From Cyclobacteriaceae bacterium (GTDB lineage: Bacteria > Bacteroidota > Bacteroidia > Cytophagales > Cyclobacteriaceae), in the NCBI GenBank assembly GCA_016787645.1, contig JAEUUF010000015.1:124001-188000 (forward strand): a stretch of 64,000 nucleotides of DNA, read 5' to 3'. Under the pieces are notes generated by a model. It had not been told where the DNA came from, searched no databases, and saw nothing but the letters and a program-made list of their open reading frames with translations. Of the stretch, positions 15,230 through 20,404 are shown piece by piece. The position numbers were made by a program, and so were the translations under genes. Each line of letters opens with the position of its first letter. Positions within the stretch are counted from its first letter, which is position 1.

Positions 15230-15267
15230 CGGATATGATCGTCCTGCATTAATTTTGCCTAGTTTTG
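15225..15267 (+). promoter_or_regulatory. Candidate promoter(s) for the desaturase gene
   Basis: Two overlapping perfect TAnnTTTG boxes: TAATTTTG at 15250-15257 and TAGTTTTG at 15260-15267. A TTTA at 15225-15228, within the upstream stop codon region, lies 21 bases before the first box and could serve as -33. This separates the desaturase from the aromatic operon. Confidence 0.45.
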
Positions 15268-15286: not shown

Positions 15287-16315
15287 ATGTCAGCCACTGC
15301 CAGTTTTCGCTTTTCCACAACCCCAGAACCCCACCGCCTTCGCACCCGCGAAATCATGGTGAAACACCCCGAGGTGAGAGCACTGATTGGCAAGAACCCG
15401 ATGTCGATGGTAGCAATCCTTGGTTTGGTGGGAGGTATGGTGGCAGGTGCTTACTTGCTTAAGGACGCATCCTGGTGGGTGATTCTTCTGGCCGCATACT
15501 TTGGGGGGGCATTTGCCAATCATGCACTGTTCGTCATGATCCATGAGTGCACGCACCACCTGTTGTTCAAACGCAAATCTTGGAATCAAGCTGCGGCGAT
15601 TATCGCGAATCTACCGCACACGTTGCCCAGTGCGATTTCATTCGCCCGGTATCATATTAAGCACCATGCTTTCCAGGGAGTGCATGAACTTGACGCTGAT
15701 CTTCCTGATTACTGGGAGGCCAAACTCATTAACCATTCCTTTTTGGGCAAAGCGTTGTGGCTGCTTTTCTTCCCCATTTTCCAGGCCATCCGAACGGTAC
15801 GCCTGAAGGAGATCAAGCCGATTGACGGCTGGATCATTGCTAACCTGGTGATACAGGTTGCTTTTGATGTGGCCATCTGGATGCTGATCGGACCCAAAGC
15901 TTTCTTCTTCCTGCTGTTCAGTTTCTTTTTTTCGGTGGGACTTCATCCGCTCGGAGCCCGCTGGATCCAGGAACACTACCTCACCCTGGATGAAAAGCAG
16001 GAGACTTACAGTTACTATGGACCATTGAACACTGTAGCCTTCAATGTGGGTTATCACAACGAGCATCACGATTTTCCTTCCATCCCATGGAACAAGCTGC
16101 CTGACCTGAAGCGCAATGCTCCGGAGTATTATGATACACTTAAGGCACACACCTCATGGACAAAACTTTTTTTTCGATTCCTGTTTGACAAGAACATCTC
16201 ACTATACCTCCGCATACTTCGGCAAGAGCGGGGCAAGGTGGCGCTGACGGACGAATCGAAACCCGATACGGAACTGGTGATTGGCGAAGATCGCCCGACT
16301 CAAACACGATCATGA
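15287..16315 (+). CDS. Membrane fatty-acyl desaturase of the sphingolipid delta-4 desaturase (DES) type
   Basis: 342-residue di-iron membrane desaturase with hydrophobic segments around 40-82 and 155-220. Histidine boxes are H86-ECT-H90, H123-IK-HH127 and H257-NE-HH261. Beyond the generic boxes it matches eukaryotic dihydroceramide delta-4 desaturase closely: the N-terminal REIMVKHPEVRALI block (the Lipid_DES region), FANLP-like IANLPHTLP, SISF-like AISFARYH, GLHP, and ETYSYYGPLN...FNVGYHNEHHDFP. Sphingoid bases are made by many Bacteroidota, so a ceramide-, sulfonolipid- or capnine-type lipid is the likely substrate; that is inference. No acyltransferase or serine palmitoyltransferase gene is adjacent. 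Ends in a 4-base overlap with the next gene. Confidence 0.87.
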   Translation: MSATASFRFSTTPEPHRLRTREIMVKHPEVRALIGKNPMSMVAILGLVGGMVAGAYLLKDASWWVILLAAYFGGAFANHALFVMIHECTHHLLFKRKSWNQAAAIIANLPHTLPSAISFARYHIKHHAFQGVHELDADLPDYWEAKLINHSFLGKALWLLFFPIFQAIRTVRLKEIKPIDGWIIANLVIQVAFDVAIWMLIGPKAFFFLLFSFFFSVGLHPLGARWIQEHYLTLDEKQETYSYYGPLNTVAFNVGYHNEHHDFPSIPWNKLPDLKRNAPEYYDTLKAHTSWTKLFFRFLFDKNISLYLRILRQERGKVALTDESKPDTELVIGEDRPTQTRS

Positions 16316-16737
16316 GAATATTGCTCACGCTTTTCATTCTCAGCTGGGTAATCCCGGCCGCGGCCCAGTTGGACCAGGAAAAAACGGTGTTGTCGTTGTC
16401 CGCAAAGAAATTTGATTGGCTCATTCACAAGCAGGCTGATTCGCTGGATCGAGTCTTGGATGCCAGGGTACAATACGTGCATTCAAATGGATGGATCCAG
16501 AACAAGAAGGAAGTGCTGGAGGACCTGCGGAGCGGCAAGCTGGTTTATGAAAAGGTCACGGTCAAGGAAGCTACCGTACGGCTTTATGGAAAGACCGCCA
16601 TTGTGAATGGCTTGGGCACCTTTGAGGGGATCAATAATGGGACTGCTTTCCGGATGGACCTTCGTTATACGGAGGTGTACATACAGACCTCCGGCGGCTG
16701 GCTGCTGGCAAGCCGCCATTCCAACCGGATGCCTTGA
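16312..16737 (+). CDS. Exported SnoaL/NTF2-like (DUF4440-type) protein
   Basis: 141 residues with a signal peptide (MRILLTLFILS to AAAQ, about 19 residues) and one NTF2-like alpha+beta domain: an N-terminal helix pair, the YVHSNG strand typical of DUF4440, and a final WLLASRHSNR strand. Such domains bind small hydrophobic ligands or act as isomerases, but most are uncharacterised. It starts inside the stop codon of the desaturase gene (ATGA), so the two are co-translated and might act on the same lipid; this is only context. Confidence 0.8.
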   Translation: MRILLTLFILSWVIPAAAQLDQEKTVLSLSAKKFDWLIHKQADSLDRVLDARVQYVHSNGWIQNKKEVLEDLRSGKLVYEKVTVKEATVRLYGKTAIVNGLGTFEGINNGTAFRMDLRYTEVYIQTSGGWLLASRHSNRMP

Positions 16738-19033: not shown

Positions 19034-20404
19034 TCAGTTCATCATCGCTTTGAGGATGTCATGCTGGGTGATGATATGCACCCGGTCCTGATCATCTCGC
19101 ACCAACAAGGCGCGGTTGCTCTTGTTCAGCATGGACGATAGTACATCGAGGGTTGTGCCCTGGGCCACAAATTGCATCGGTTTGTCCATGAGGTCTCCCA
19201 CCTTGCTCTCGGTTGCTTTTGGGTCGCTGATGATTTTCTCCAGCAGGTTGGCTGAGGCAATGCTTCCCACAAACTCCTCCTTGTCTACTACTGGGACCTG
19301 ATCAACGCCTTGCTGGTTCATGATCCGGATGGCCTCACCAATCAGTGCATTCCGGTCAACTGTAAATAGCCCGTTCTTGTCCTTGCGACGCGAAATGATG
19401 TCGCGGGCAGAAGCAAACGTACGCTCTTCCAGGAACCCATGATCCTTCATCCAGTTGTCGTTATACACCTTGTTGAGGTAGCGCGTACCATGGTCAGGGA
19501 GAAGTACGACCATCAGGTCATCTTTCTTCAGATTTACCCGGGCATACTCCAGTGCCCCGTGGATGGCAGATCCGCTGCTCCACCCCACGAAGAGACCTTC
19601 TTCCCGGCTAAGCCGGCGGGCAGCGATGGCGCCGTCTTTGTCAGTGACCTTGATAAATTGATCAATGACATCAAAGTCGACGTTTTTGGGAAGAATGTCT
19701 TCACCGAAACCCTCCGTGAGGTAGGGGTAGATTTCATTCCGGTCAAAAATGCCGGTCTCCTTGTACTTTTTGAACACGGAACCGTAGGTGTCGATACCCA
19801 CGGTTACCAGTTTCGGATTTTGTTCCTTGAGGTACCGGGCGGTCCCGCACATGGAGCCGCCGGTGCCCACCGTAGCGGCATAATGAGTGATACGTCCACC
19901 GGTCTGTTTCCAGATTTCGGGCCCCGTCGTTTCGTAGTGCGCCGCGGCATTGGAAGGATTATCGTATTGATTGGGGTAATAGGAATTCGGTATTTCCTTG
20001 TTGAGTTTTCGTGCTACCGAATAGTATGACCTTGGATCGTCGGGTTCGACATTGGTAGGACATACAACCACTTCGGCTCCAACTGCTTTTAAGATGTTGA
20101 TTTTCTCCTGGGACTGCTTGTCTGCCATGGTAAAGATGCAGTGATAACCCTTGGCAACGGCCGCCAAAGCCAGTCCCATCCCGGTATTGCCAGACGTACC
20201 CTCAATGATGGTTCCGCCCGGTTTCAGGACCCCGGCCTTTTCGGCGTCTTCGATCATTTTGATCGCCATTCGGTCTTTGGTCGAATTACCTGGATTGAAA
20301 TATTCTACTTTGACCAGGATCGTACCTGGTATCCCTTTCGACATCCGGTTGAGTCGTACCATGGGGGTGTTCCCGATGGTTTCTACAATGGAGTTATAGA
20401 TCAT
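19034..20404 (-). CDS. cbs: Cystathionine beta-synthase (PLP domain plus CBS-domain pair)
   Basis: 456 residues. The N-terminal fold-type II PLP domain has Lys43 in NPGNSTKDR, the phosphate-binding loop EGTSGNTGMG and VGTGGSMCG; the C-terminal part (about 345-456) is a tandem CBS-domain module that usually senses adenosyl ligands. The domain layout matches eukaryotic-type cystathionine beta-synthase without the heme-binding N-terminus. Cysteine synthase would be the alternative, but plain cysteine synthases lack CBS domains. Converges with the OmpA paralog, only 3 bases apart. A TACCTTTG box lies just upstream. Confidence 0.85.
   Translation of the reverse strand: MIYNSIVETIGNTPMVRLNRMSKGIPGTILVKVEYFNPGNSTKDRMAIKMIEDAEKAGVLKPGGTIIEGTSGNTGMGLALAAVAKGYHCIFTMADKQSQEKINILKAVGAEVVVCPTNVEPDDPRSYYSVARKLNKEIPNSYYPNQYDNPSNAAAHYETTGPEIWKQTGGRITHYAATVGTGGSMCGTARYLKEQNPKLVTVGIDTYGSVFKKYKETGIFDRNEIYPYLTEGFGEDILPKNVDFDVIDQFIKVTDKDGAIAARRLSREEGLFVGWSSGSAIHGALEYARVNLKKDDLMVVLLPDHGTRYLNKVYNDNWMKDHGFLEERTFASARDIISRRKDKNGLFTVDRNALIGEAIRIMNQQGVDQVPVVDKEEFVGSIASANLLEKIISDPKATESKVGDLMDKPMQFVAQGTTLDVLSSMLNKSNRALLVRDDQDRVHIITQHDILKAMMN

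Follow-up and report, generated by a model that had tools for sequence, protein, structure and literature searches.

A predicted long-chain-base desaturase of the DES family in a Cyclobacteriaceae genome

The window analysed here is a 64,000-nucleotide stretch of contig JAEUUF010000015.1 from a Cyclobacteriaceae genome (assembly GCA_016787645.1), in which a first-pass annotation had singled out a gene resembling the eukaryotic sphingolipid desaturases DEGS1 and DES. An open reading frame (ORF) of 342 codons, running from an ATG start to a TGA stop, lies where it had been annotated (Table 1). Its product, called P0001, matches the Lipid_DES model PF08557 with 43.3 bits (gathering cut-off 23, E 2.4e-11), so the N-terminal block that had been described as Lipid_DES-like is a genuine match. 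A second match, to PF00487, covers the body of the protein (94.8 bits, cut-off 29.7, E 9.7e-27). By these Pfam models the assignment to the DES family is firm, which makes P0001 an additional member of a family that was already known.

Table 1. Features of the desaturase gene and its companion in the window
Feature	Position	Strand	Evidence
DES-family membrane desaturase P0001, 342 aa	15287..16315	+	PF00487 and PF08557 over cut-off; AF2 model
Lipid_DES (PF08557) N-terminal block, residues 6-38	15302..15400	+	Pfam match
His box 1, H86xxxH90	15542..15556	+	H86, H90 invariant, 71 aligned sequences
His box 2, H123xxH126H127	15653..15667	+	Invariant, 71 aligned sequences
ETYSYYG block, residues 239-245	16001..16021	+	E239, T240, S242, Y243, Y244, G245 invariant, 71 sequences
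His box 3, H257NEH260H261	16055..16069	+	H257, E259, H260, H261 invariant, 71 sequences
DUF4440 (SnoaL-like) protein, signal-peptide-like N-terminus by eye	16312..16737	+	PF14534 63.5 bits, cut-off 25.2

Relatives were collected at 121 loci, comprising the window, 80 loci from a scan of named genomes and 40 from further genomes, with flanks of up to about 10 kb on each side; some of the 80 and the 40 are the identical contig. The named-genome set consists of the best 80 of at least 582 bacterial relatives, ranked by their match to the query L009 and not to P0001, and it leans toward the L009 branch as a result. Filtering by length and at 80% identity left 71 bacterial sequences for alignment, P0001 included. 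Among these there is no variation at H86, H90, H123, H126, H127, H257, H260 and H261, or in Q238-E-T-x-S-Y-Y-G245, and the three His boxes reported earlier are therefore present with invariant histidines. Pattern-based counts of the boxes (97/121 with a strict pattern, 68/71 with a looser one) were discarded, because the shortfall arises from the pattern and the columns themselves are invariant in the 71.

The AlphaFold2 (AF2) model of P0001 has a mean predicted local distance difference test (pLDDT) score of 93.3. A sequence search of the PDB with P0001 found no relative, returning a single chance row at E 0.37. Stearoyl-CoA desaturase (4YMK, 6WF2, 4ZYO) and the alkane monooxygenase AlkB (8SBB, 8F6T), which act on other substrates, are 12-19% identical to it. 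P0001 is the sole PF08557 match of its own genome. PF00487 is found there at eight places, P0001 included, and none of the other seven was matched by P0001 in phmmer at E <= 1e-3. The G+C content of the gene (0.506) resembles that of the window (0.521) and thus gives no sign of recently acquired foreign DNA.

An unverified sequence of human DEGS1 was the only eukaryotic sequence used for comparison. Like the eukaryotic DEGS1/DES proteins, P0001 has PF08557 and PF00487 over cut-off, three His boxes, and the ETYSYYG and NVGYHNEHHDFP blocks, and 33 of the 34 residues invariant among the 71 bacterial sequences also occur in this human sequence. The likeness had been described as almost residue for residue. 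This holds for the stretch ETYSYYGPLN...NVGYHNEHHDFP, but not for the N-terminal block, where 7 of 14 positions agree by eye with the unverified DEGS1, nor for the whole protein, which is 39% identical to it. Other bacterial members reach up to 50% (L123), and P0001 differs further in falling, though not firmly, in another clade. A last difference is that base synthases of the sphingolipid and of the sulfonolipid type are both encoded in the window's genome.

The tree behind this placement comprised the 71 bacterial members, DEGS1 and, as outgroups, three desaturases from the window's own genome. A branch with 100/97 support parts all the bacterial rows and the unverified DEGS1 from these three, which leans toward DES, but the outgroup branches are very long and leave the root unsure. 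P0001 belongs to a clade of 40 (100/99) with Melioribacter, Mucilaginibacter and others, and Bacteriovorax L131 is in its basal group. A second clade has weak overall support (89/56) and comprises Saprospiraceae, Balneolaceae, L116, L122 and a group in which DEGS1 joins the Bacteriovoracaceae member L123 and Myxococcota (97/85). The Legionella members are basal in the tree. In an approximately unbiased (AU) test without the outgroups, forcing DEGS1 into the window's clade cost 11 log units (p-AU 0.063), so that this placement appears disfavoured but is not rejected. The suggestion that the gene bears on the origin of the eukaryotic one is accordingly weakened as far as P0001 is taken for the best lead, since DEGS1 groups in the other clade, a grouping that the AU result leaves less than firm. 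Placement among ordinary acyl-lipid desaturases, which had been named as the refuting outcome, did not arise with the own-genome desaturases that formed the comparison set.

The rarity that had been implied is not supported, since the family is widespread in bacteria. Of the 395 phylum genomes sampled, 40 (about one tenth) have PF08557, which is absent from all 14 control genomes. Among the matches listed, the relatives found in named genomes include Bacteroidota, Ignavibacteria, Balneolaceae, Myxococcota, Bacteriovoracaceae, Legionella and Nitrospinaceae. Cultured carriers among them are Chryseosolibacter histidini and species of Mucilaginibacter and Aquirufa. A search of 58 related genomes with P0001 gave a match at E <= 0.001 in 20, with 18 at 58% identity or more and the remaining two weak. 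Within the window's genus the gene is patchy, as only 16 of 36 genomes carry it; one of these is a metagenome-assembled genome (MAG), G406, whose match (L048, G406:C22:29640-30635) holds one TAG stop. Eukaryote-like sequence was also sought among viruses, but two scans of viral_contigs found no relative, and a search of BFVD gave distant desaturases only.

The genome appears equipped to make long-chain-base lipids, and the serine palmitoyltransferase (SPT) and capnine genes that the annotation had proposed to look for were both located. SPT is encoded by L040, which scores 530 bits to 3A2B and 669.6 to the NCBIfam equivalog NF047600 (cut-off 640). Genes for a GNAT protein and an NAD-epimerase follow it in the same direction, elsewhere in the genome than the desaturase, and this row resembles the Caulobacter set of Spt, N-acyltransferase (CerS) and dehydrogenase (CerR) described in PMC11324152. 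A second gene, L041, is of the SulA/CapB type, with 589.8 bits to 7U7H, 572.1 to the cysteate-C-fatty acyltransferase 28EH and 236.1 to SPT. We take 7U7H to be SulA from its matching lysine numbering, as its title does not name SulA. By our own count L041 has a lysine aligned at the position of SulA Lys281, and lysine there, versus alanine in SPT, serves as a diagnostic criterion in PMC9304779. Another gene, 2.7 kb from the desaturase (window 19034-20404, minus strand), encodes a pyridoxal phosphate enzyme with a CBS-type tail. It falls between cystathionine beta-synthase, whose cut-off it narrowly misses (TIGR01137, 504.6 bits against 510.25), and the cysteate synthase CapA, as which it was rejected (NF053679, 459 against 600).

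Genetic context in other organisms links the family to SPT. A homologue of SPT lies within six of the 121 loci (L108, L116, L122, L131, L140 and L147). The SPT-like gene of L108 (32%) was set aside, its neighbours indicating by eye a role in biotin synthesis, and DES and SPT thus share a locus in five cases: two Legionella species (L140, L147), a Bacteriovorax MAG (L131) and two further MAGs (L116, L122). All five are among the 80 named-scan loci, and no SPT was found in the flanks read at the window and the 40 further loci. By chance 0.29 such co-locations would be expected in 80 loci and 0.45 in 121. With the two Legionella counted once, the probability of at least four is 2.3e-4 or 1.2e-3, respectively, if there is one SPT per 4 Mb and the loci are independent, though some share a contig. 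No SulA-like gene occurs at any of the 121 desaturase loci.

The SPT-linked desaturases lie with SPT, SDR or epimerase, GNAT and other lipid genes, whereas the window's gene does not. L131 has SPT, GNAT, an epimerase and a PF04116 fatty-acid hydroxylase. At L116 and L122, homologues of SPT and GNAT are joined by an SDR and a CDP-alcohol phosphotransferase and, by eye, by ketosynthase-like and acyl carrier protein (ACP)-like genes. In L140 an AMP-ligase/ACP/aminotransferase fusion and a GNAT-like gene accompany an SDR immediately 5' of the desaturase, a PF04116 hydroxylase and a CDP-alcohol phosphotransferase. Identity to P0001 is 42% for L116, 38% for L122, 47% for L131 and 43% for L140, and the three that were scanned (L131, L140 and L122) have PF08557 and PF00487 over cut-off. 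In Legionella gratiana and Legionella sp. PC1000 these genes form a sphingolipid-type cluster at about 1-11 kb, with DES, the SPT-like fusion, SDR, hydroxylase and phosphotransferase; its Pfam basis is L140, and L147 is assigned by likeness. The SPT of L122 (PBTY01000022.1) is 62% identical to that of the window's genome, and the record, labelled Rickettsiales, is possibly a mislabelled Bacteroidota MAG.

Co-occurrence was also examined at the level of whole genomes. Using E <= 1e-90, SPT is found in 40, SulA in 37 and at least one of them in 54 of 57 genomes with the gene; the carriers with neither (G400, G404 and G423) are MAGs of 530-810 contigs and 81-90% completeness. Across the 395-genome sample SPT occurs in 300 and SulA in 139. 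Examples of the more distant SPT matches (44-50%) were checked: that of G176 scores 376 bits to 3A2B versus 286 to other enzymes, and at L215, L216 and L220 a GNAT gene adjoins SPT with an epimerase-like gene near. Among the 98 genomes that we count in the window's class, SPT at 55% identity or more is present in 9/15 carriers versus 9/83 non-carriers (p 8.6e-5), or, counted by genus, in 5/10 versus 6/42 (p 0.025).

The 17 carriers lacking SPT at this threshold give weight to the hedge in the annotation that capnine, the sulfonate analogue, might be the substrate. SulA homologues are present in 14 of them, in G408 as a fragment, and the other three are fragmented MAGs. None of the 12 most complete passes a curated SPT model that both positive controls pass, and all 12 have SulA. 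Two SPT-less SulA carriers are single-contig genomes; in one, G249, the SulA match is flagged with one TAA, and a shorter match there has no stop. These genomes provide an argument by elimination only, because the great majority of the class has SulA (91/98 genomes). A carrier without SPT, G425, also encodes a protein of 821 aa, part of which resembles aminooxononanoate synthase (L222 4736-7198, TIGR01825 E 1.2e-43).

The desaturase and its DUF4440 companion overlap by 4 bases (ATGA) at 16312, and co-translation of the two, as annotated, is a fair reading of this arrangement. A phmmer homologue of the DUF4440 protein adjoins the desaturase in 3 of the 121 loci (the window, L168 and L169), and L045 and L046 have an ORF of similar size and position; all belong to the window's genus. 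It was rejected on these grounds as a general partner of the desaturase, and is probably a lineage-specific, local operon partner with no catalytic role and no part in the enzyme. The sequence TAATTTTG at 15250-15257 (plus strand), 30 bases ahead of the desaturase start, fits TAnnTTTG, the consensus of the Bacteroidota -7 promoter element, and the gene may therefore have its own promoter. Within the genus the desaturase occurs in two settings (names by eye), one with aromatic amino acid genes and DUF4440 (for example L168) and the other with insulinase-like/IspF-like and E1-dehydrogenase-like genes (for example L170), which suggests gain or movement.

We consider it somewhat better than an even bet that P0001 is a DES-family desaturase acting at C4-C5 of an N-acylated long-chain base. 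Behind this view stand the place of P0001 in the family, its intact motifs and confident fold model, the presence in the genome of both genes for base formation, and the co-location of some relatives with SPT. That the substrate is a long-chain-base lipid of some kind is likely, and so, slightly less, is desaturation as opposed to hydroxylation; with relatives beside SPT and both SPT and SulA-type genes in its own genome, desaturation of such a lipid is the most likely function. As an integral-membrane di-iron enzyme, P0001 would use O2 and an outside electron donor to remove two hydrogens at carbons 4 and 5, adjacent to the 3-hydroxyl, and so form an allylic alcohol of the sphingosine type. 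The substrate might be dihydroceramide, which the SPT, GNAT and epimerase genes make possible, the sulfonolipid N-acylcapnine, for which the SulA-type gene could provide, or both.

Several points weigh against this interpretation. No base gene for sphingolipids or sulfonolipids adjoins the window's desaturase, and the flanks read at the 40 further-genome loci show none either. In the phylum as a whole, SPT is no more frequent among carriers (34/40) than among non-carriers (266/355; p 0.11), and because nearly every sampled genome has either SPT or SulA, the presence of one or the other says little and was dropped as phylum-wide evidence. Within the genus SPT does not track the gene (7/17 carriers versus 4/11 non-carriers, where a second high-scoring TIGR01825 paralogue was taken as SPT). 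This last result, together with the two gene settings in the genus and a scattered distribution in which the most frequent neighbour family reaches only 12 of 121 loci, would suit an enzyme acting on glycerolipid acyl chains or on another hydroxy-amide lipid of Bacteroidota, its DES likeness being mere ancestry. We regard such a substrate as unlikely, since the seven further PF00487 places in the genome could serve acyl lipids, SPT-linked members flank the window's clade on both sides in the tree, and the DES-specific blocks are strongly conserved.

A further point is that DES-type enzymes can also hydroxylate, and vertebrate DES2 is bifunctional. P0001 could on this basis hydroxylate either C4 of the long-chain base or the acyl chain in amide linkage, and the fold and di-iron motifs cannot separate these reactions from desaturation. 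Hydroxylation of the amide-linked acyl chain is reported in PMC11324152 for CC_0202, a Caulobacter desaturase/hydroxylase of the DesA family. However, the Caulobacter control genome has PF00487 and no PF08557, so CC_0202 should lie outside the DES family, and L131 and L140 hold a separate PF04116 fatty-acid hydroxylase that would make a second one partly redundant. A hydroxylase therefore seems distinctly improbable, and C4-C5 desaturation remains the function that we favour. It is possible, and we propose this only tentatively, that sulfonolipids have become the substrate of the enzyme in this genus and in related Bacteroidota, where it would make 4,5-unsaturated capnoids, the sulfonate analogues of ceramide. 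If so, genomes with the desaturase and SulA but lacking SPT would be pure makers of unsaturated sulfonolipids. Unsaturated sulfonolipids occur in some members of a group comprising Salinibacter, Algoriphagus and the flavocristamide producers; halocapnine of Salinibacter was considered as a product of the DES family and set aside, the literature matches having given its name alone.

A paper of December 2025 attributes the simplicity of bacterial sphingolipids to a want of desaturases, and also reports a d18:1/24:1 ceramide in Sphingobacterium detergens (PMC12724326). The 1-deoxyceramide bases of the Black Sea are described as mostly free of unsaturation in PMC11334938. Among the literature matches listed, in which subscription journals are thinly covered, none was seen to describe a desaturase for dihydroceramides or capnoids in bacteria, and the literature searched yielded no gene for 4,5-unsaturation of capnoids. 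Bacteria that are thought to make mainly saturated sphingolipids may make unsaturated ones. The presence of a DES-family gene in about one tenth of the sampled genomes of the phylum, and beside SPT in a few lineages, makes desaturation directly testable. The bacterial DES family also bears on the origin of the eukaryotic gene. If active, a gene of this family would supply the genetic basis for unsaturated ceramides or capnoids in bacteria, classes of compounds that act on eukaryotic hosts and neighbours.
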